Positions 3 through 24,380 of a stretch of DNA of 25,584 bases are shown here, piece after piece. The notes beneath the pieces were generated by a model, which saw only the letters and a program-made list of their open reading frames with translations, was not told the DNA's origin and ran no database searches. A program made the position numbers and the translations under genes. The stretch's first letter is position 1; every line of letters begins with the position of its first letter. The stretch is taken from contig JAUCGD010000028.1 of assembly GCA_030377945.1 (NCBI GenBank), positions 1-25,584 of the forward strand, read 5' to 3'. Source of the stretch: Desulfobacterales bacterium HSG17. GTDB lineage: Bacteria > Desulfobacterota > Desulfobacteria > Desulfobacterales > Desulfococcaceae.

Positions 3-296
3 GTTATTCCTTCTATTTATGAAGGAATGAAAAGCGGCCATATTGAAATTTACGATTTACTATTAGGAAAAATTAACAATTTCTTGTCAAGTTTAGGAAT
101 CCGAACACATGGAGTAGATGTTGGTCAAAAAGTTAATTACGATTTCTGTAGCCCAACTGAATCAAATGAAAATGAAACTAACGATTATAAGCTTAAAGAA
201 GTTATAAAAGAAGTTAGAATGTTGCCTTATATTTTCAATGAAAAACACATTGTTGTTGAAGGTGAAGTCATTGTTTGGAGGTTTAGAAATGAGTAA
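3..296 (+). CDS. GrpE-like protein, C-terminal part (5' truncated by window edge)
   Basis: The reading frame is open from the first bases of the window, so the N-terminus is missing; about 97 codons remain. The visible part has a helical stretch (IYDLLLGKINNFL), a Gly-Ile turn and an acidic segment. It ends in a beta-like tail, VVEGEVIVWR, which resembles the C-terminal beta wing of GrpE nucleotide exchange factors (short loop, then a final hydrophobic strand). Similarity is weak and judged by eye. Its stop overlaps the start of the downstream Hsp70 by 8 nt (ATGAGTAA), which implies translational coupling and fits an exchange factor paired with that Hsp70. It could instead be an unrelated small helical partner. 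GrpE-like function is an inference. Confidence 0.4.
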   Translation, partial: VIPSIYEGMKSGHIEIYDLLLGKINNFLSSLGIRTHGVDVGQKVNYDFCSPTESNENETNDYKLKEVIKEVRMLPYIFNEKHIVVEGEVIVWRFRNE

Positions 297-1770
297 TAAC
301 GATCTATATTTAGGGATAGATTTTGGCACATCCACGAACTATGTTACGAGATGGAATGCCCAAAAAAAAGTAGCTGTCCCTGTTGTGGGTATAACTAAAG
401 ATCATGGAGGTTCTAATTTCATTGACAATATTATCTACTATGAATCTGTGAATAGTCAGATCATCGGAAAGCTTGCTTTTAAAAAGGGTATTACCGAACC
501 TTTCAATGTAGTTGAAGGTATAAAGCGCAAGCTTGAAAATGATAATTGGAAACAAAGAATTCCATCATTGAGAGAAGAACTTTCTGCTGAAGAAATTACA
601 ACAGATATTTTCAGAACTATTAAAAATCGTGTTGAAGAAATTCATGGCGGAAAAACTGTTGACGGTGTCGTAATCAGTGTTCCCTTTGCATTTCAGAGTA
701 AAGAACGGCAAAGAATAAAAAATGCTGCTGAAAAAGCAGGACTTAATGTGATGAAACTAATTGAGGAACCTGTTGCTGCTGCCATATGTTTCGGTTTGTT
801 TAACGAGGTTATCAAAAATAATATTGAAGAAAAAGTGCTTATTTTTGATTTAGGGGGAGGAACATTTGATGTAACTATATTTAACTTAGTAAAACAGTCA
901 GATAGTAATATTCGTGTTGAAGTATTGAATACAGATGGGCATAAAACATTAGGTGGCAAAGATATTGATGACATGCTCGTAAGAAAATTTGAAGAAAATA
1001 TTGGTTATGAATTAGCATTAATCTCTGATGAAAGGGAAAGAAGAAAAGACCAGTTAAATTTGATTGAAGAAGCAAAAAGAGTTAAAGAAGCTCTGGCGTT
1101 AGCGGAAGAAGACGATGCCTGCTGTACAGGTTTGGCACAGGGTAAAATGCTCGAAATGGATATAACATTAGATGATTTTAACGAATGGCTTATCAGACAT
1201 GGATTTATCGGTAGAATAAAAGAAGTCCTCGAAAATGCACTTGACGAAATTGAATTTGAACCTAGTGATATTGACAGAATTGTCTTAGTCGGCGGATCAA
1301 GCAATATAGCACTCATACAAGAAGAAATAGAGAAATTTTTTGGGAAAAAAGCAGAGTCAATAAAAAATCCAGGTGAACTTGTTGGTGAAGGTGCCGGTAT
1401 TTATTGTGGCAGTCTTTTAGATAAAAATCTGAGCTATGAAATTATTACAAAAATCAGTCATGCCATTGGTGTCAAAACAGGGACAAAATTTACTCCCCTT
1501 ATACAAAGGAATAGTAAATATGAAACATTCTCTGATATTCGATATTTTAGTATAAAAAATAAAACAAACAGGAATACAAAAATTGATGTTTATCAAGGTA
1601 ACTCAACTGATATCATTGAATGTTCATTTGTTGGTGAAATTCAAATTGACGGTTCTGAATTCCCTGACAACAAAATAGGGATTCAACTTGGAACAGATAA
1701 AAACGGCATTGTCAGCTATAAACTTTATAAAATTGAAGAATCTGATCCATTCTATGCAGGGAGGGTTTAA
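289..1770 (+). CDS. Hsp70-like ATPase 1 (short, lidless DnaK-type)
   Basis: A 493-residue actin-fold ATPase of the Hsp70 family. It shows the phosphate-1 motif GIDFGTSTN (residues 9-17), a lysine at the DnaK K70 position (IKRKL, K79), EEPVAAA (about 159), phosphate-2 DLGGGTFDV (from D187) and adenosine motif VLVGGSS (about 332-338). About 120 residues follow the ATPase, starting ISHAIGVK, consistent with a reduced SBD-beta. The helical lid is absent (DnaK is about 640 residues) and there is no DnaK-like hydrophobic linker. The ATG at 289 is chosen because GGAGG (277-281) sits 7 nt upstream; the in-frame ATG at 238 has no such site. The gene overlaps its upstream neighbour by 8 nt and the next gene by 1 nt, so it lies inside an operon. 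Family assignment is certain; the client is unknown. Confidence 0.93.
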   Translation: MSNNDLYLGIDFGTSTNYVTRWNAQKKVAVPVVGITKDHGGSNFIDNIIYYESVNSQIIGKLAFKKGITEPFNVVEGIKRKLENDNWKQRIPSLREELSAEEITTDIFRTIKNRVEEIHGGKTVDGVVISVPFAFQSKERQRIKNAAEKAGLNVMKLIEEPVAAAICFGLFNEVIKNNIEEKVLIFDLGGGTFDVTIFNLVKQSDSNIRVEVLNTDGHKTLGGKDIDDMLVRKFEENIGYELALISDERERRKDQLNLIEEAKRVKEALALAEEDDACCTGLAQGKMLEMDITLDDFNEWLIRHGFIGRIKEVLENALDEIEFEPSDIDRIVLVGGSSNIALIQEEIEKFFGKKAESIKNPGELVGEGAGIYCGSLLDKNLSYEIITKISHAIGVKTGTKFTPLIQRNSKYETFSDIRYFSIKNKTNRNTKIDVYQGNSTDIIECSFVGEIQIDGSEFPDNKIGIQLGTDKNGIVSYKLYKIEESDPFYAGRV

Positions 1771-3905
1771 TGGGGAAACAAAATAAAAAAAAGGTTGATA
1801 AAAAAAGTAAACATAAAAAGCCAATTAATAACGTGCCTGAACTTAAAGGAGATTATAAGGATTATTTTGATAAAGATTCAATTGCTGAAAAACGATATAA
1901 TTGCGCTAAAGAACATATCAATAATAGACTTCAAATGTCTGAAATTGTAAAAAAATATGGTGTGGAAGATGCATTCGTCAAAGATGCGGTAAAGAGGTTT
2001 AAACAAAACGGTGGCATTCATTGCTTCAAAGATGATGATGACATGAAGGATCCTCATTCTTCAACGATGAACGAAACTGGAACAAATATAAGTTTAACAA
2101 AAAAAATGTGTAACTTGTTTAAAGGAGAAAAAGATAAAAATAATACCAATGATAAATCTACTGATGAAAGAAAAAAAATGATACCTAATAAATCGGATAC
2201 TAATGATACTGAAAAAAGTGAGGAAGGAAAATATTCAGATATAGATTCAATAAATAAAAACCAGACTAAAATATTTGAAAAATTTCAGACTAAAATATTT
2301 GAAAAAATTGAAACAATAGAAAAATCGTTAAAAAATGACTTATCAAAAATTTATGGTTTTCAGGAAAGCATTCAAGCCATCAAAAATAAATTTGATGATA
2401 GTAGCCAATTTCTTGAAAATATTTCAAATTATTCTTCATCTACAAAAACAAACCTACAAAAACAAACAAAGATGGTCGAATCAGTACAAAATATTGTTAA
2501 ACAATTGCCCTCCAATATGGAAATTAAAAGATCACAAAGCGATGTTTCAAGTCGGTTAAAAAATATTGAAGAAGATATTTCTGATCTAACAATGGACATT
2601 CCAAAAAAACTTAAATTTATTGAACAGTCATTTGATTTACTACAAGGAAAACTTGGTTCCCTTGACGATATTCAAGAGACACTTAAAGATAAAGGTATTT
2701 CAATAAGGCAGGAATTCCCACCGACTGGAGAAGAAGAAGATGTTATTATTCAACTCGCTAAATATGGTGAAAAGATTCTTAATCATCTGACAATAGCCGC
2801 AAGGCATTATGCAAGAAACCGGCAAGATATCTCACGCGCAGGTCATGAAAAACATTTACAAGAGCTACAAAAAGAACAAAAAAAATCCTTTAAAAATGGT
2901 AAATCAGAAGGTAAAATCGAAACTGTTGAAGACTTAATAAAACAATTTGACTTAGGTTCACTCTTTAATAGCAAATCTCAAGAAGGTCAAACCATAGTCG
3001 CTTTTTTGAAAAATAATGGCTTAATAGAAGATGAAGAACTTGTACAGGATACTGTTATAGAAATTGATGAAAAAAATAGAGGTCAACTTGAAGTGAAAGC
3101 GAAATTTCAAGGTCTTGGTGCATTTAGTGTCAAAAAATCCTGTCTTAAATTAGGCGGAAAAATTATCCGCAAGGCAGAGTTAGAAGCAAATGAAGGTACT
3201 ACTGAAAGAAATAAAAAATCAAAAACAATTCCTGACATCCAAATAGAAGCAGAGTACAATAATGAGAAGGGTATGAAGTCAGAAGTTTCTCCGAATAATG
3301 AAGAAAAAGCATCTTCAGATCAATCTCAACAAGACAAAGATGTTATTACAAATGAGAATGACGAAAGTGTAAAAAGTTCAACTCCTGACATCCAAATAGA
3401 AGCAGAGTACAATAACGAGAAGGGTATGAAGTCAGAAGCTTCTCCGAAATTTATTGATAAACAAGTCCATAAAACAGATAATGTTAATATAGAAAACGAT
3501 GAAGCAGACAAAAATATTTACAACCATGAGAATATACCTGTTGAACAAAGTGATGAAGAAAAAGTATCTCCAGATCAATCTCAACAAGGCAAAGATGATA
3601 TTAAAAATGAGAATGACGAAAGTGTAAAAAGTTCAACTCCTGACATCCAAATAGAAGCAGAGCACAATAATAAGAAGGGTATGAAGTCAGAAGCTTCTCC
3701 GAAATTTATTGATAAACAAGTCCATAAACCAGATAATGTTAATATTGAAAACGATGAAGCAGACAAAAATATTGAAAACGATGAGAATATACCTGTTGAA
3801 CAAAGTGATGAAGAAAAAGCATCTTCAGATCAATCTCAACAAGGCAAAGATGATATTAAAAATGAGAATGACGAAAGTGTAGAAAGTTCAACTTCAGGGG
3901 AGTAG
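1770..3905 (+). CDS. HTH / coiled-coil protein with GrpE-like segment and acidic repeat tail
   Basis: A 711-residue protein I cannot name. A lysine-rich start is followed by a helix-turn-helix-like segment (about residues 37-86; SEIVKKYGVEDAFVKDAV) of the type seen in transposase or regulator N-termini. Then comes a low-complexity charged linker and a long coiled coil (about 165-320) containing an 8-residue duplication (QTKIFEKF, DNA 2262-2309). A compact domain spans about 325-470 and ends GGKIIRKAELEA, which recalls the last beta strands of GrpE. The tail (from about 488) is acidic, Ser/Gln/Asn-rich and built of repeats of 85 residues. The ATG shares one base with the stop of Hsp70-1 (TAATG), with GGGAGGG at 1759-1765. 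It may be a scaffold or adaptor and exchange factor for the neighbouring Hsp70s; that role is an inference. Confidence 0.85.
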   Translation: MGKQNKKKVDKKSKHKKPINNVPELKGDYKDYFDKDSIAEKRYNCAKEHINNRLQMSEIVKKYGVEDAFVKDAVKRFKQNGGIHCFKDDDDMKDPHSSTMNETGTNISLTKKMCNLFKGEKDKNNTNDKSTDERKKMIPNKSDTNDTEKSEEGKYSDIDSINKNQTKIFEKFQTKIFEKIETIEKSLKNDLSKIYGFQESIQAIKNKFDDSSQFLENISNYSSSTKTNLQKQTKMVESVQNIVKQLPSNMEIKRSQSDVSSRLKNIEEDISDLTMDIPKKLKFIEQSFDLLQGKLGSLDDIQETLKDKGISIRQEFPPTGEEEDVIIQLAKYGEKILNHLTIAARHYARNRQDISRAGHEKHLQELQKEQKKSFKNGKSEGKIETVEDLIKQFDLGSLFNSKSQEGQTIVAFLKNNGLIEDEELVQDTVIEIDEKNRGQLEVKAKFQGLGAFSVKKSCLKLGGKIIRKAELEANEGTTERNKKSKTIPDIQIEAEYNNEKGMKSEVSPNNEEKASSDQSQQDKDVITNENDESVKSSTPDIQIEAEYNNEKGMKSEASPKFIDKQVHKTDNVNIENDEADKNIYNHENIPVEQSDEEKVSPDQSQQGKDDIKNENDESVKSSTPDIQIEAEHNNKKGMKSEASPKFIDKQVHKPDNVNIENDEADKNIENDENIPVEQSDEEKASSDQSQQGKDDIKNENDESVESSTSGE
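2262..2309 (+). repeat. 24-bp tandem duplication inside the coiled coil
   Basis: Two adjacent copies of a 24-bp unit beginning CAGACTAAAATATTTG encode QTKIFEK-type octads at the start of the coiled coil. The phase is kept (8 codons), so this is a small in-frame expansion. Confidence 0.8.
3231..3893 (+). repeat. In-frame tandem repeats (255 bp) encoding the acidic tail
   Basis: The motif CCTGACATCCAAATAGAAGC recurs at 3231, 3384 and 3639. The last two units are 255 bp each (85 residues, starting PDIQIEAE and ending near DESVKSST), nearly identical to each other. The first unit is only 153 bp (51 residues) and lacks a 102-bp, 34-codon internal block. All length differences are multiples of three, so the reading frame is preserved. 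The high identity between units points to recent duplication. Confidence 0.92.
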
Positions 3906-3961
3906 CCATTATTTTCAGGCAATTTTTTTTGCAAAATTACGTTAATTAAGGAGTAAATATA

Positions 3962-5608
3962 ATGTCTCTACCGTTTTTTTGTGGAATAGACTTAGGTACA
4001 ACAAATAGTACTGTATCAATAATCAGAATGGAGAGAAGAAGTGATGACCCCATGGATCATTTGGAAACTCGGCCTATCCATCAATATGATGAAAGTTTTC
4101 ATTTTGACAAGGATAGTATAATTCTTCCTTCATCAATTTATTTTGATTTGGACAACAGCAGAGTTTATACAGGAAAATATGCAAAATCAATGTATGCCAC
4201 CGGAGACAGGCCGATGCAAACTATTCGGTCTGTTAAAACTCGAATAGGGGGGGAATCTTTAGTTGAAATTCCGAAAATTAATAGCCCTGATAACATTCAA
4301 TACTTTGACATGGTTCAATGTTCTGCATTACTACTCAAGACAATTCGTCAATCTTTGAAGGAGCAATTTGGACAGGATATTGATGAAACGTTTATAACAG
4401 TTCCGGCCGCTTTCAATACAGATGAAAGGCAGGCAACCATTAATGCTGCTTTTTTGTCTGGATTCAAAAAGATTGGCATTTTAGATGAACCTACAGCCGC
4501 CTTATTATACTATATTAATGGCGGTGAAGGAGATCTGTCTGATGATTTTATAGAAAATGATAGTGAGTATAAATTAGTGTACGATATTGGTGGAGGAACA
4601 CTTGATGTTAGTATAGCAAAAATTTCAGAAGATGATGAAGGAGATGTAGAAGTTGATATTGTTGCAAGGTCTCCCAGAATGGATTTAGGGGGGGATGATT
4701 TTGATCAATATATAGCAGCATATTTCCTGTCTGAATTTGAGAAACCAAGAAAATCTATTGAAAAAAGATCTAAAGAAGAGCAGAGTAAAATTATAGCAAG
4801 AATTGTTTCACAGGCAGAAAATTATAAAATTGAGTTGAATAAAGCAATCAAACAAAAGTTGGGAGAATCCAAAAAACTGGAAAAAATTAAAAAATATGTC
4901 AATTTTGAAATTGTTAATAACATGTATATTCAGGAGATTGTACTGACAAAAGAAATTGTAGATCAAATTTTATCAGGTTTGATTAATGGAAAAATATTAG
5001 ACCCTGTGGAAAGAAGTTTAAAAAGTGCAAAACTTAATAAAAGCAAAATTTCAGAAGTATTGATTACTGGCGGTATGTCAAATTTTTATTCTGTTGAGGA
5101 AGCACTACGAAATTTTTTTGGTTCAGGTATTCGTTTAATTCCAATTGATAGCGTTACAGCAGTTTCAAAAGGAGCTGCTATTCATCATTATACCAAGTAT
5201 AATGATAAGCTTATAAAAATAAAACTAAAAGACATTATGTCTGATGATATTTTTATCAAAATAGGTGATGAATTTGAAATTTTTATTCCTAAAACAACTA
5301 AACCGGATACAGAGGGTACTTTTACATACACAGTACCAGAAGCTTTGGCAGATTTAGCTGTGTTTTTATATAGTGGAACCGGGAGCAAACCGGAAAATTT
5401 TGTACCTCTGTCTGGTAAATTTATTCCATTATATCGGAGATATCTTGAAAGAGAAGAAATAACAATTCATTGGAAGCTTAATAAAAATAAGATTATTTCA
5501 ATTGAAATTCCTGAACTTAATGGACACTTTAAGGTTCAAAAAAATCAATCTTATGGAACAAAAGAAATTGAAAATAATTTTATCCAAAAACTTAAGATAA
5601 ATGAGTGA
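3962..5608 (+). CDS. Hsp70-like ATPase 2 (strongly diverged substrate domain)
   Basis: A 548-residue Hsp70-family protein. The ATPase domain has GIDLGTTNST (residues 8-17), VKTRIGG with a lysine at the DnaK K70 position (K92), VPAAF, LDEPTAAL, DIGGGTLDV (from D208), DLGGDDFD, and an altered adenosine motif LITGGMSN (about 367-374). After SKGAAIHHY the remaining region (about 405-548) has no recognisable DnaK linker or SBD-beta signature. It contains its own beta-rich stretch (IFIKIGDEFEIFIPK, TFTYTVPEA), so the client-binding part is new or highly diverged. AAGGAG (3948-3953) lies 8 nt before the ATG. The gene begins after a 56-nt gap and overlaps the next gene by 8 nt (ATGAGTGA). It is probably an ATP-driven partner within the same complex as the other two Hsp70s. 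Confidence 0.92.
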   Translation: MSLPFFCGIDLGTTNSTVSIIRMERRSDDPMDHLETRPIHQYDESFHFDKDSIILPSSIYFDLDNSRVYTGKYAKSMYATGDRPMQTIRSVKTRIGGESLVEIPKINSPDNIQYFDMVQCSALLLKTIRQSLKEQFGQDIDETFITVPAAFNTDERQATINAAFLSGFKKIGILDEPTAALLYYINGGEGDLSDDFIENDSEYKLVYDIGGGTLDVSIAKISEDDEGDVEVDIVARSPRMDLGGDDFDQYIAAYFLSEFEKPRKSIEKRSKEEQSKIIARIVSQAENYKIELNKAIKQKLGESKKLEKIKKYVNFEIVNNMYIQEIVLTKEIVDQILSGLINGKILDPVERSLKSAKLNKSKISEVLITGGMSNFYSVEEALRNFFGSGIRLIPIDSVTAVSKGAAIHHYTKYNDKLIKIKLKDIMSDDIFIKIGDEFEIFIPKTTKPDTEGTFTYTVPEALADLAVFLYSGTGSKPENFVPLSGKFIPLYRRYLEREEITIHWKLNKNKIISIEIPELNGHFKVQKNQSYGTKEIENNFIQKLKINE

Positions 5609-6230
5609 TGCTATGCATGATTTTAACAAACCATTAGTTTATCAAACTGTTGAAAGAATTAGAGAATCCATAAACCGTCGATTTGAAAAAGATGCGAATT
5701 TATATATTTCAAATCAGGATAGCCAGAAAATAAAAAATGCCCTGAGAAATTCAAACCTGAATATCATTTATTTATGGTTTAAAAACAGAAAACATTCAGC
5801 TGAAATACTGACTAAAGTTATATTAAAAAATGCGTGGTTAATGAAACCTATTTCTTATGAAAAAATGAAAGAATTTTTTAAGCCAATATTTGATACATGT
5901 GAACAAAAATTTTTTCTTGAGGTCGCAAAAGAATCTATTGAAAATAAAACCGAAACATCTTTCGATCTAAAAAGACTGTTAAATGACATATATTATGACA
6001 AGGCTGATATACAACTATGTGAACATATTTTAGAAAATGGACATAATGATCTTGAAGTTTTAAAAACATGTTTTCAAAAAACAATAAAAAATAATTTATC
6101 TGGCAATCTGATATATAAAAAGGTGAAAAAATATTTAAAGAATTATCCAAATTTGAACCAGAGTATTCGGGCACTTAATATCACTCATCTAACAGAAGAT
6201 GAACAAAAAAATTTAGCAGCCATCATTTAA
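5601..6230 (+). CDS. Helical-repeat protein, N-terminal part (ends at in-frame TAA)
   Basis: 209 residues, predicted almost wholly alpha-helical, rich in Lys, Asn, Leu and Ile, with helix pairs suggestive of HEAT/TPR-like repeats (LTKVILKNAW, KRLLNDIYY, LEVLKTCFQKTI). No catalytic motif, signal peptide or membrane segment is visible, and I do not recognise the family. Its start overlaps the stop of Hsp70-2 by 8 nt, so it is probably translated by coupling; no strong Shine-Dalgarno precedes it. Its TAA (6228-6230) is in the same frame as the following gene. The frame stays open straight after the stop, so this may be the front half of one roughly 458-codon gene. A scaffold or client-adaptor role next to Hsp70s is an inference. 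Confidence 0.75.
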   Translation: MSDAMHDFNKPLVYQTVERIRESINRRFEKDANLYISNQDSQKIKNALRNSNLNIIYLWFKNRKHSAEILTKVILKNAWLMKPISYEKMKEFFKPIFDTCEQKFFLEVAKESIENKTETSFDLKRLLNDIYYDKADIQLCEHILENGHNDLEVLKTCFQKTIKNNLSGNLIYKKVKKYLKNYPNLNQSIRALNITHLTEDEQKNLAAII

Positions 6231-6269
6231 AAAAATGAAATTGAAAATGAAAAACCAAATCAAATATGG

Positions 6270-6977
6270 TTGGAGAGATTTAGGCGATTGGGAAAGAATG
6301 CTTTTGATGTAACAAAAGAGTATCTTGTTAATTCGGGATTCAAAGATCCTAATTATAAACTAATGGTGAATGATATTATCATAAGAATAATTAAGAATGA
6401 AAGAAGATACCAAGATTACTTTCTCAAAAATCTTACAGAGTTATATCGCTCTAATTCAAACGTAAGATATAGTTTAATACATGGTGTTAAAAGAATTACG
6501 GACACAGATATCAAAAACAAAATTATTCGAGAATTCCAAAATATTGGAATCCCGGATGTAGAAGTTCTTCAAGAGATTACAGATGAGATATTAACAGGAT
6601 ACGAAGATGAATTATGGATCGACTGCATTGAAGATGTTTATAACGAAATTATGCAAAATTCAGAAAAAAAATATATTGCATATATTGCCCATATATTTAG
6701 AAAAAATGATAATTTTAAACCTTGGTTTAGAAAGTTATTATCCGAATATGGCGATCAGCAATTGGTACAGGAATTTGTTGCAGAACTTTTGAAGAAAGAA
6801 AGAAATTCATATTATGTTAATATCGCATTAGATTATTGGAATAAAAATCAGGATGATTACTTAAAAAGAAAACTGTCAGAAGTAATAAAGGAAAAGCAAT
6901 TTCGGAGTCCAACAATCAAAGCTTTTGTTTTTGATCATGATTTTGAACTGGCTAAAAGACTGTATAGCCAAGCTTAA
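6270..6977 (+). CDS. Helical-repeat protein, C-terminal part (possibly split gene)
   Basis: About 235 residues, all-helical, same composition and style as the preceding gene (VNDIIIRIIKNE, LIHGVKRI, EFVAELLKKE), resembling HEAT-type repeats. No family is recognised. The frame is open back to the TAA at 6228-6230 and holds no in-frame ATG before 6363. Possible starts are TTG at 6270, without a Shine-Dalgarno, or TTG at 6288, with GGAGAG at 6272-6277. The absence of a good start and the shared frame suggest it is the second half of the upstream gene, cut by one nonsense codon. An independent TTG-started gene cannot be excluded. It ends 18 nt before the ATG chosen for Hsp70-3. Confidence 0.6.
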   Translation: MERFRRLGKNAFDVTKEYLVNSGFKDPNYKLMVNDIIIRIIKNERRYQDYFLKNLTELYRSNSNVRYSLIHGVKRITDTDIKNKIIREFQNIGIPDVEVLQEITDEILTGYEDELWIDCIEDVYNEIMQNSEKKYIAYIAHIFRKNDNFKPWFRKLLSEYGDQQLVQEFVAELLKKERNSYYVNIALDYWNKNQDDYLKRKLSEVIKEKQFRSPTIKAFVFDHDFELAKRLYSQA

Positions 6978-6995
6978 AAGGGAGTGGATTTAAAA

Positions 6996-8456
6996 ATGGG
7001 TATTTCAGTAGGAATAGATTTGGGGACAACAAACTCGGCGTGTTGTGCTTTGATAAACGGGAAATTTAAATTTTTAAAATTCAGAGGTAAAGAACTTCTG
7101 CCTTCAGCAATTTTATGGCAAGATGGGAAATTAACTGTCGGTGAAAAAGCGCGCAAAAAATCTGTAATCTATTCAGATAATTTTATCAAATCGTCAAAAA
7201 CTTTTATGGGAAATTTTAAAAAAAAATGGACAATTGAAGATAGAAATTTTTCGACTACAGATGTTGCCAGCGAAATATTAAGCCATATCAAAAAAGCAGC
7301 TGAAAAATACTTTGAAACAAATCAAAAAATCACATCTGTTATTACAGTTCCAGCTTATTTTACTGCAAACCAGATTAACGAGACAAAAATTGCTGGAGAA
7401 AATGCTGGTTTTATAGTCAAACAGATTATTACAGAACCTGTAGCAGCAGCAATTGCCTATGGATTTGAAGACCAAATAAATCAAAAAATTTTTGTGGTTG
7501 ATATCGGTGGTGGGACTTTTGATGTCTCAATTTTAGAAATAGATGGAAACAAATATCAAACCCTTGCTATTGAAGGAGATAATAAGCTTGGCGGAGATAA
7601 TTTTGATGAAGTTATATTGGAGATGTGCTTCAAAAAAATTCGTCAGACAGCAGGTCTTGACTTATCAAGCATGGAGAAAACAGCACTTCCAAAAAATGAT
7701 TTTCTTCAAGCAAGACAAAGATTGATTATAGAATCTGAAATAAAAAAAATAGAACTAAGTGAAGTTGAAAATGTTGAAATTGAAATACCTAATCTATTCA
7801 ATTATAAAGAAAAACCCTATAATTTTTCACTTTCACTTTCAAGGGATGAATTTCAAGAAGAGGCAAAGTATCTTTTAAATAAAATCAGGCGAACAATAAA
7901 AAAGTGTATTGACGACGTTTCCATTAGTTCTTCAGACATAGACAAGGTTATTTTGGTTGGCGGAACATCTTACATGCCAATAATTCAAAATTATATCAAA
8001 GAATTATTCGGGCAAAAACCATATTCAGACATGGATTTATCAAAATTAGTTGCTATGGGAGCAGCTTTAGTTGCAGATAATGAGAACGATACAATTAAGG
8101 TGCGAGATATAATCTCACATTCACTAGGCATTGAAATAATTGGAAAGGAATTTGCAAGAATATTATATAAAAATGATAATTATCCTATTTCTAAATCAGA
8201 AATATTTACGACAACTGTTGATTATCAAGAAAACATTGATGTTAGGGTTTTTGAAGGAGAAGATGAAAAATTTGTTGATAACAACGAATTCTACGGGAAC
8301 TTTATTTTGAATGAAATTGAACGAGCAAGAGCTGGAAGCCCCCAAATTGAGGTATCCTTTATGTTTGATAGAAGTCGCGATTTACATGTTATAGCAAAGG
8401 ATTTAAGAACTGGCTCAAAAAAATCTAAGACAATAAAAATTGATAAAAATATGTGA
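6996..8456 (+). CDS. Hsp70-like ATPase 3 (lidless, canonical SBD-beta)
   Basis: A 486-residue Hsp70, the most DnaK-like of the three. Motifs are GIDLGTTNSA (residues 6-15), SSKTFMGN with a lysine at the DnaK K70 position (K68), VPAYFTANQ, ITEPVAAAIAYG, DIGGGTFDV (from D169), LGGDNFDE and VILVGGTSY (G322). The C-terminal part (about 366-486) keeps SBD-beta landmarks: ISHSLGIEI, FTTTVDYQENIDVRVFEGE, FILNEIERARAG, and a late IEVSF strand. The protein then stops, so there is no helical lid. The ATG at 6996 is preferred (GGGAG at 6980-6984, 11 nt upstream). A GTG at 6984 would add four residues but lacks a Shine-Dalgarno. It is the last gene of the operon and probably holds unfolded or exposed hydrophobic peptide with weak, fast-exchange binding. 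Confidence 0.93.
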   Translation: MGISVGIDLGTTNSACCALINGKFKFLKFRGKELLPSAILWQDGKLTVGEKARKKSVIYSDNFIKSSKTFMGNFKKKWTIEDRNFSTTDVASEILSHIKKAAEKYFETNQKITSVITVPAYFTANQINETKIAGENAGFIVKQIITEPVAAAIAYGFEDQINQKIFVVDIGGGTFDVSILEIDGNKYQTLAIEGDNKLGGDNFDEVILEMCFKKIRQTAGLDLSSMEKTALPKNDFLQARQRLIIESEIKKIELSEVENVEIEIPNLFNYKEKPYNFSLSLSRDEFQEEAKYLLNKIRRTIKKCIDDVSISSSDIDKVILVGGTSYMPIIQNYIKELFGQKPYSDMDLSKLVAMGAALVADNENDTIKVRDIISHSLGIEIIGKEFARILYKNDNYPISKSEIFTTTVDYQENIDVRVFEGEDEKFVDNNEFYGNFILNEIERARAGSPQIEVSFMFDRSRDLHVIAKDLRTGSKKSKTIKIDKNM

Positions 8457-8657: not shown

Positions 8658-8773
8658 TATAGCTCCGGTCATATGAATTGATACTCGTTTTTAGATTCCT
8701 GGCCTAATAATATCAGAATGTTAGCTTGATATTTTACGATATTTTGGTATCAATTCATGTGACCGGAGCTATA
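8658..8773. repeat. 27-bp inverted repeat around a 62-nt loop (MITE-like)
   Basis: Left arm 8658-8684 and right arm 8747-8773 are reverse complements except at one position (T8672 opposite G8759, a G-U pair in RNA). The core is TAGCTCCGGTCA. Total length is about 116 bp with no coding capacity. This suits a miniature inverted-repeat element or an IS-end remnant. As RNA it would form a long stem, but the 62-nt loop and lack of a T-run argue against an ordinary terminator. Confidence 0.8.
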
Positions 8774-23113: not shown

Positions 23114-23190
23114 GCGCCCGTAGCTCAGCTGGATAGAGTGCCGGACTACGAATCCGTAGGTCGCACGTTCGAATCGTGCCGGGCGTACCA
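23114..23190 (+). tRNA. tRNA-Arg (anticodon ACG)
   Basis: 77 nt, reads arginine CGU and, with inosine at position 34, CGC and CGA. Acceptor GCGCCCG pairs with CGGGCGT (G1-U72 wobble). The D-arm is GCTC/GAGT, the anticodon loop is CTACGAA, the T-arm is GCACG-TTCGAAT-CGTGC, and the 3' CCA is encoded. The first pair of the anticodon stem (27-43) is a C-U mismatch. Its 3' end abuts the integrase gene of an integrated element, so it is the likely integration target. Confidence 0.95.
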
Positions 23191-23198
23191 TAAAAATC

Positions 23199-23233
23199 AA
23201 GGGGTTAACCAACATCGGTTAATCCCTTTTTTT
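23199..23233 (+). terminator. Rho-independent terminator after tRNA-Arg, inside the integrase 3' end
   Basis: AAGGGGTTAACC (23199-23210) and GGTTAATCCCTT (23217-23228) form a 12-bp stem with one G-U pair and a 6-nt loop, followed by a run of seven T (23227-23233). The sequence lies over the last codons of the opposite-strand integrase. On the minus strand the hairpin is followed by TTTTTA, so it may act in both directions. Confidence 0.85.
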
Positions 23234-24380
23234 GTTTGGTTGCGGATAGGTTGCGTTTGGTTGCGGATTTGACTTTCACATCATCCAAACGGTCAACAGC
23301 AGCCTTATTACCACCGGGAGTCAAATGACCATAAATATCCACAGTCACTTGAATACTGTGGTGTCCGAGCTGATCTCTAACGTATGCCAATGATTCACCA
23401 GCCTGGATTAACAAGGTTGCGTAAGTATGCCGTAGGTCATGAACTCTGACTTGTCTAACGCCTGCTGTCTTCAAAGTTCTGTAAAATACCCGCTTGCGCC
23501 AGTTGTTCATATCCAGAGGGTTGCCTTTGCTGTTTGTAAAAACCCATTCGGGAAATGTGCTCCCATTAACTTCAGCCTTCTTCTGCTCCTTGAATTTCTG
23601 CAAAACAGCTGTCAATTGGTTTGACATGTCAACAGTTCTGGACTTCCCATTTTTAGGCACATCAATTTTACATCTTGAAAAAGTTCTGCTCACATCAATT
23701 GAGCGGTTATCAAAATCAACATCTTTCCATTTCAAACCAAGACATTCCCCAAACCTCATACCTGTCCTTGCCATTGTAAGCGCAACAGGAAAGTGATCTT
23801 GATATTTTTCCTTGAATGTAGATAATAGAGTTGAAAGTTCCTTTGATGTCAGCGGATTAATATCATCTTTAATAACCTTCTTTTTGAATAATTTCCCAAG
23901 ACGCTGTGCAGGATTAGCAGCAATAACTTCATCATCAACCGCAAGGCTTAAAGGGCCAGATATACAGCTTTTCATATGTGAAACTGTACTGGAAGCAAAA
24001 CCTTTCTGAATTTTTTCCATCAGGAACTTTTTAACCATCATTTTGGTAATATCATCAACAGGAGTATTCCTGAAGACAGGCAAGACATGTATATTCATGA
24101 TACTTACGTAATCCTTATGTGTTGATGATTTACATGTAACGGGAACTGTTACACCAAGCCAGGTCTCTGCATAATCTTTGAATATCGGTATTGCAGGCTG
24201 TTCATTATTATCAAGCATTCCAACATCTCCAAGAGTAAGCTTTGCTTCAATCTTTTTGGCAACCTCCAGAGCTACTCTTTTGTTATTACCGATTTTTTTA
24301 GCTTTCCTTTTTCCTTTGTGGTCTATAAAAACCCACCACTCTCCTGAATCTTTTTTCTTTTCTCTTACTTTAACTCCCAT
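23205..24380 (-). CDS. int: Tyrosine-family site-specific integrase
   Basis: 391 residues, phage/ICE-type tyrosine recombinase. An N-terminal arm-binding domain (1-50; GEWWVFIDHKGKRKAKKIG) is followed by a SAM-like core-binding domain (about 63-165) and the catalytic domain with R209 (ARTGMRFGE), a lysine near 246, HDLRH (H314, R317), LGHH (H340) and the nucleophile Y350 (VDIYGHL). All catalytic residues are present, so it should be active. The last residues (SATKRNLSATKQKK) come from repeated GGTTGCGGAT-type DNA. AAGGAGG lies 7 nt before the ATG on the minus strand. Its position next to the tRNA indicates integration into tRNA-Arg. Confidence 0.96.
   Translation of the reverse strand: MGVKVREKKKDSGEWWVFIDHKGKRKAKKIGNNKRVALEVAKKIEAKLTLGDVGMLDNNEQPAIPIFKDYAETWLGVTVPVTCKSSTHKDYVSIMNIHVLPVFRNTPVDDITKMMVKKFLMEKIQKGFASSTVSHMKSCISGPLSLAVDDEVIAANPAQRLGKLFKKKVIKDDINPLTSKELSTLLSTFKEKYQDHFPVALTMARTGMRFGECLGLKWKDVDFDNRSIDVSRTFSRCKIDVPKNGKSRTVDMSNQLTAVLQKFKEQKKAEVNGSTFPEWVFTNSKGNPLDMNNWRKRVFYRTLKTAGVRQVRVHDLRHTYATLLIQAGESLAYVRDQLGHHSIQVTVDIYGHLTPGGNKAAVDRLDDVKVKSATKRNLSATKQKKGLTDVG

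Follow-up and report, generated by a model that had tools for sequence, protein, structure and literature searches.

An unusual operon with three lidless Hsp70s in a Desulfobacterales genome, two of which look like a co-inherited pair

The window analysed here is an entire contig of 25,584 bases (JAUCGD010000028.1) of Desulfobacterales bacterium HSG17, and positions 3-8456 of it form one tight, unusual accessory operon in which three Hsp70s, named Hsp70A, Hsp70B and Hsp70C in their order along the DNA, are encoded together. Hsp70A and Hsp70B look like a pair that is inherited together in divergent relatives, the gene order being known from the window alone. The new and well-supported element is this apparent co-inheritance of two Hsp70s that lack the helical lid and belong to different lineages.

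A protein database searched at E values up to 1e-20 returned 2,989 proteins for Hsp70A and 2,899 for Hsp70B, generic Hsp70s included; the relatives analysed are the best 120 of each set, with one contig, the longest, per cluster. Seventeen of the 119 listed Hsp70A clusters share the exact size of their longest contig with one of the 119 listed Hsp70B clusters (window excluded), where near misses give an expectation of 0.2-0.5. We take these 17 pairs to sit on shared contigs, going by the equal longest-contig sizes alone. The smallest of the 17 measures 6,541 bases, and the two genes would therefore lie near each other there; one of the 17 belongs to a Desulfamplus metagenome-assembled genome (MAG). 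Over 18 pairs, namely the 17 and the window, the pairwise distances among the Hsp70A proteins correlate with those among their Hsp70B partners at r=0.94, a value reached by 0 of 5000 permutations, and the correlation is 0.98 when two Desulfamplus-like pairs are left out. In the farthest pairs, identity to the window proteins goes down to 39-40% for Hsp70A and 45-46% for Hsp70B. The listed Hsp70A relatives measure 481-513 amino acids (aa), except for one of 410, and those of Hsp70B 545-569 aa, except for two of 481 and 517. Among the best 120 for Hsp70A the nearest named relatives are a Deltaproteobacteria MAG, Desulfonema magnum and Desulfamplus, which by themselves make a host in the Desulfobacterota probable, and the named carriers include Intestinibacter, Selenomonas, Oscillibacter, Neobacillus and Cryptobacteroides; those named among the best 120 for Hsp70B include Intestinibacter, Clostridium perfringens, Peribacillus, Fictibacillus and Lachnospiraceae.

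The lineages were examined in a first tree of 43 Hsp70s over 475 columns, one HscA and one HscC among them, and in a second of 350 columns from which the HscA, a Klebsiella piece and one DnaK were dropped. The Hsp70B relatives form a clade with a support of 100 in the first tree, where they are sister (99) to two Hsp70s encoded in plasmid operons of Priestia and Klebsiella; in the second tree the grouping with the Priestia Hsp70 alone retains a support of 99. The Hsp70A relatives form a separate clade (87, first tree), and none of the A, B and C groups falls on the HscA/HscC branch of that tree. Hsp70C pairs in this tree with an Hsp70 from a Haloplanus plasmid (99), and the sister of the two is a group (support 96) that comprises DnaK, HscA, HscC and the Hsp70 of a Nostoc plasmid. 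The Haloplanus protein was nevertheless rejected as the sister of Hsp70C: support is 99 in the first tree but 81 in the second, and the identity does not exceed that of Hsp70C to the DnaKs compared, which is 33-39%. The placement of Hsp70C is thus uncertain. Judged by their sequences, Hsp70A, Hsp70B and Hsp70C are separate lineages and no local duplicates of one another.

All three proteins belong to the Hsp70 superfamily, with PF00012 scores of 219.1 (A), 156.7 (B) and 351.5 bits (C) against a cut-off of 20.6, and none reaches the HscA equivalog cut-offs or that of the DnaK equivalog NF001413 (648 bits; A 200.5, B 150.0, C 387.1). Their mutual identity is 23.3-25.1% over 450-469 columns; to one reference DnaK, L159 from an IMG/VR contig, it is 28.9% for A, 26.9% for B and 37.0% for C. 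In the alignment the three keep the ATP-site motifs, that is, the first phosphate loop, DxGGGT, a K70-like lysine and an E171-like glutamate (numbering of E. coli DnaK), and each of them has a substituted DnaK linker VLLLD. Absence of the helical lid was read from the alignment with DnaKs for all three, which stop after the beta substrate-binding domain, and from a structure model for Hsp70B only. This model (AF2, 34-sequence alignment, mean pLDDT 87.2, pTM 0.89) shows an ATPase domain, a beta domain and merely two short terminal helices, and its best structural matches are full-length and open ATP-state DnaK (TM-score ~0.77 by query length). The three proteins therefore have in common with DnaK, HscA and HscC an ATPase domain followed by a beta substrate-binding domain; they differ in the lid, which a review ascribes to those chaperones (PMC8215388), and in their separate tree branches. 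A lobe I stretch of ~22 residues is also missing from A, B and C and present in two reference DnaKs of the alignment; a deletion of such kind, of residues 76-101, is reported for HscC in the same review. The first-pass annotation of this DNA, made from its sequence alone, had described three non-identical Hsp70s in one compact operon, all with the ATP motifs, including the K70-equivalent lysine, all without the lid, and all in a block more AT-rich than its neighbours; each of these observations held, the spacing and composition being given below.

Conservation among the relatives follows the same lines. Of the listed Hsp70B proteins, 120/120 have intact residues at the ATP positions checked, and a T199-like threonine is kept in 117/120 listed Hsp70A proteins. 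The threonine of DxGGGT is lost in the Hsp70A of the two Desulfamplus-like pairs (P0135, P0136), P0223 deviates likewise at this column, and the Hsp70A of Desulfonema magnum (P0134), the one of 410 aa, has R at the K70-like place. Because the Hsp70B partners of the two Desulfamplus-like proteins retain the motif, this pattern suggests that the ATPase may be dispensable in Hsp70A and indispensable in Hsp70B. In the PADLOC profiles, the Hsp70-like protein PDC-M61B gave weak, partial matches to Hsp70A (31.8 bits) and Hsp70C (35.1 bits) covering ~200 of 588 profile positions, short of full length; for Hsp70B there was no match with an E value of 0.1 or less.

The nearest plasmid relatives of Hsp70B are carried by unrelated plasmids, Klebsiella grimontii pNY3A (L219:1894-10884) and Priestia megaterium pNCT2_2 (L220:2618-10874), which share an operon. 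It encodes an MBL-fold protein (of beta-CASP type in Klebsiella), a protein of 527 or 476 aa, respectively, judged by eye to be coiled-coil, one Hsp70 (annotated in Klebsiella as two open reading frames (ORFs)), a HEAT protein and a pair of small ORFs. Of 72,556 plasmid records, just these two contain relatives of the 476-aa protein. The operon looks like a mobile Hsp70-containing system, for which no name was found. It is linked to the window by its Hsp70, the sister of the Hsp70B clade, and differs in that it has just one Hsp70 and also includes an MBL-fold gene and a protein that can be recognised as HEAT; no MBL-fold gene is listed by Pfam for the visible window operon, whose contig is truncated upstream. 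Two other plasmids carry different arrangements. A 40-kb Nostoc plasmid (L222:3218-9220) encodes consecutively a TPR protein, a DnaJ-domain protein, GrpE, Hsp70 and a further TPR protein, a complete private Hsp70 set. On a Haloplanus plasmid (L221:4651-13065) the genes for a vWA protein, an Hsp70, a GrpE and a tubulin-like protein are clustered, which resembles the conflict systems of Kaur et al.

The window operon consists of seven ORFs on the same (+) strand that overlap or are separated by 6-56 nt (Table 1); the first is truncated at the left edge of the contig. Hsp70A more likely starts at 289, since GGAGG stands seven bases upstream, and its overlap with the first ORF is then 8 nt. The operon genes have a GC content of 26.5-33.7%, compared with 35.1-42.2% for the eleven genes listed on their right. 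The nearest further gene, 376 nt beyond the operon, encodes an acyltransferase and is followed by sfsA and dnaE. The 27-nt inverted repeat sits between Hsp70C and the acyltransferase gene, and its arm is absent elsewhere in the window (<=3 mismatches). A Pfam scan of 19 window ORFs found no DnaK, DnaJ or GrpE besides the three Hsp70s. Far to the right, at 23114-24380, the opposite strand carries a phage-type integrase gene directly after a tRNA-Arg (ACG); a second, distinct mobile island likely has its edge here.

Table 1. Features of the operon and of its right edge (window positions).
Feature	Position	Strand	Evidence
C-terminal part of an ORF truncated by the contig edge, 97 aa; possibly the end of a GrpE-like exchange factor	3..296	+	hhalign
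Hsp70A, ~493 aa, lidless	289..1770 (ORF listed from 238)	+	PF00012; own clade; ribosome-binding site before 289
711-aa protein with weak likeness to a helix-turn-helix (HTH) near its N-terminus, a middle part that by eye looks helical/coiled-coil, and acidic 85-aa repeats at its C-terminus	1770..3905	+	
Tandem repeat, 255 bp x 2.3 copies, encoding the acidic tail of the 711-aa protein	3298..3893	+	95% matches
Hsp70B, 548 aa, lidless	3962..5608	+	PF00012; AF2 model; DnaK fold; tree
209-aa ORF, no family above cut-off	5601..6230	+	
Orphan ORF of 235 aa; prediction all-helical, perhaps an alpha-solenoid	6270..6977	+	
Hsp70C, 490 aa, lidless, of the three nearest DnaK	6984..8456	+	PF00012; 37.0% to reference DnaK
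Inverted repeat, 27 nt, 96% complementary, 62-nt loop, like a miniature inverted-repeat transposable element (MITE); right edge of operon block	8658..8773	.	

The remaining ORFs of the operon are harder to place. The truncated first ORF, which has no Pfam match at E up to 1 and for which sequence search found no GrpE among solved structures, scored 22.6 in hhalign against the C-terminal region of an 81-sequence GrpE profile, where the best of 120 controls reached 19.2; the GrpE likeness is suggestive. An alignment of the 527- and 476-aa plasmid proteins scored 21.0 (probability 1%) against the same GrpE end, a score without a control of its own, and singly the two gave 16.7-16.9, inside the control range of the first-ORF comparison. 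The 711-aa protein was also considered as a remote GrpE homologue and found no support in profile comparison. The first-pass annotation had claimed for it an HTH, a coiled coil and acidic repeats: the repeats are confirmed, the HTH stays sub-threshold and the coiled coil is a judgement by eye. PHROG matches of these partner ORFs are weak, the best (E 0.00016) falling on the repeats of the 711-aa protein, and PADLOC gave a weak HerA match for the 209-aa ORF (11.6 bits). For the model of the 235-aa ORF Foldseek returned nothing at E up to 0.001, and a likeness to Mediator subunit 10 (PDB sequence, E 0.0052) was regarded as chance.

Searches of viruses and plasmids returned no close relative of Hsp70A or Hsp70B. 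In plasmids and phages, tblastn with Hsp70A and Hsp70B gave no record whose best place reached 60% identity, and the rows listed are mostly dnaK, hscA, hscC or unannotated, with a few given as 'Hsp70 family' (H2, H4, H13, H62); for Hsp70C all 269 plasmid records stay <60%, the best 40 of 269 at 35-38%. Scans of IMG/VR were mostly empty: one gave 156 stretches, the best 80 of which are 25-31% identical to Hsp70A, and three stretches were returned once without a tblastn match to the window proteins. A pattern scan of genome contigs was swamped by generic Hsp70s (best 31%). Whole-genome searches for members found 0/391 in Clostridia, 0/250 in Bacilli, 0/198 in a draw of Bacilli overlapping the 250, 0/397 in one family, 0/247 in one order, 0/67 in another and 0/10 in further genomes; with cut-offs set by the authors and no positive control, these show merely that the system is not common in the groups sampled. 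Twelve further genomes gave matches of just ~28-35% in long frames. Matches in 72/345 genomes were discarded, their frames of 605-652 aa being of DnaK length, so that none appears A-like.

We tentatively read the operon, at slightly less than an even call, as an accessory Hsp70 machine that would act as an ATP-gated assembly or disassembly switch, possibly of the conflict-system type, and not as a housekeeping chaperone locus. This is drawn from the operon layout, the intact ATP residues, the absent lid, the apparently shared contigs and correlated divergence of Hsp70A and Hsp70B, and from the sister position of Hsp70B to plasmid-operon Hsp70s, together with the Hsp70-GrpE and Hsp70-HEAT units described for conflict systems. 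Hsp70A and Hsp70B would cooperate on a single client or scaffold of their own, which they would bind and release with ATP rather than clamping peptides beneath a lid; the adjacent exchange factor, of which the first ORF may be the end, would reset Hsp70A; the 711-aa and the helical 235-aa proteins would serve as scaffold or client adaptors; and Hsp70C, with its DnaK-like beta domain, would provide for the binding of substrates in general. In this way the machine would gate with ATP whether a complex is assembled or disassembled, a threshold switch such as has been proposed for Hsp70-containing bacterial conflict systems. No effector is recognisable in the visible part; it may lie past the contig edge. 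A bolder version, in which a pair of lidless Hsp70s from different lineages assembles into an obligate heteromer and the third serves as substrate receptor, making an ATP-timed sensor or switch of a mobile phage-defence system and a new class of Hsp70 machine, seems unlikely to us; the heteromer and the defence role, which the first-pass annotation also put forward, are inferences.

Several results weigh against an accessory machine of this kind. Correlated divergence of Hsp70A and Hsp70B follows under any co-inheritance. Several listed Hsp70B relatives on contigs of 24-36 kb (P0010, P0012, P0016, P0018) have no Hsp70A contig of equal size among the matches listed, and solitary A or B genes may exist, since the best 120 of each were listed with one contig per cluster. 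Hsp70B shares 32.9% identity with the Klebsiella piece, but with the Priestia Hsp70 the figure is 26.9%, about the DnaK level, so that its kinship with the plasmid proteins is a matter of the trees. Apart from the Hsp70/actin-fold families the operon has no domain above the Pfam cut-off, and below it there are just SduA_C in Hsp70B, RnlA-toxin_DBD and FeoB_Cyto in the 209-aa ORF and MA3 in the 235-aa ORF. The 235-aa ORF found only itself among 336 candidates in the protein database, and the 711-, 209- and 235-aa ORFs had zero matches in the 72,556 plasmid records, so that the 'dedicated partner proteins' of the first-pass annotation are not borne out. Its GrpE-like tail keeps the suggestive likeness described above, with no significant hmmsearch support and an hhalign probability of just 9.8%.

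Hsp70-containing conflict systems are already in print, and it is conceivable, though in our view unlikely, that the operon is the visible part of one of them, of the GAP1-N2 GTPase or a CoCoNuT-like type, with GTPase and effector left of the contig edge at which the first ORF is truncated. In the second theme of the GAP1-N2 systems, as described by Kaur et al. (2020, PMC7159879), HSP70 occurs with GrpE and, in a subset, with a second Hsp70 without the peptide-binding domain, and firmicutes are, as here, among the carriers; in type III CoCoNuTs (PMC11090510), Hsp70-like and HEAT-like units occur together, CnuD joining Hsp70-like nucleotide- and substrate-binding domains with HEAT-like helical repeats and coiled coils. 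The visible operon, however, yielded no GTPase domain, McrB, McrC, HEPN, FNIII, DnaJ or TPR family in Pfam at E up to 1, the contig being truncated upstream, and thus shows neither the GAP1, GTPase, FNIII-DnaJ or TPR proteins of the former nor the McrB GTPase, McrC or HEPN of the latter. Moreover, its three Hsp70s exceed the number given for those systems in the passages compared, each has a beta domain in the alignment (for Hsp70B also in the predicted structure), and their ATP motifs are intact, whereas the Walker-A-like motif of CnuD is described as degenerate. As to the earlier statement that no named system with this composition was known, Hsp70-based conflict systems have been described, and no description of this gene set, of an operon with three lidless Hsp70s or of the A-B pair was found in the open-licence PMC literature, by which its absence from print is not shown.

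Specialised stress chaperones, that is, divergent Hsp70s that fold a few clients in the manner of HscA or HscC without any conflict role, would also account for intact ATP sites and for an Hsp70C that is 33-39% identical to the DnaKs compared and sister to the DnaK/HscA/HscC group, and Myxococcus is reported to have a specialised Hsp70 paralogue with its own exchange factor directly upstream (PMC11019930). We regard this as rather improbable: Hsp70A and Hsp70B are far from DnaK, HscA and HscC, the group supported at 96 leaves Hsp70C outside, the lid is absent from all three and Pfam finds no J-domain family in the operon. Very improbable is a decaying island in which leftover Hsp70 genes were retained by chance next to the MITE-like repeat. 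The AT-rich block does end near that repeat, and the DxGGGT losses in the two Desulfamplus-like Hsp70A proteins and the short Desulfonema magnum copy would suit decay; the window ORFs, however, are open and tightly packed, and their ATP residues, like those of nearly all the relatives listed, are intact.

Work on Hsp70s usually treats them as a single lidded chaperone accompanied by a J-protein and GrpE. If the accessory-machine reading is true, a co-inherited pair of lidless Hsp70s would represent a second use of the Hsp70 ATPase, as paired switches, and it would become testable whether bacteria gate immune or stress complexes by Hsp70 cycles, as has been proposed from gene neighbourhoods.

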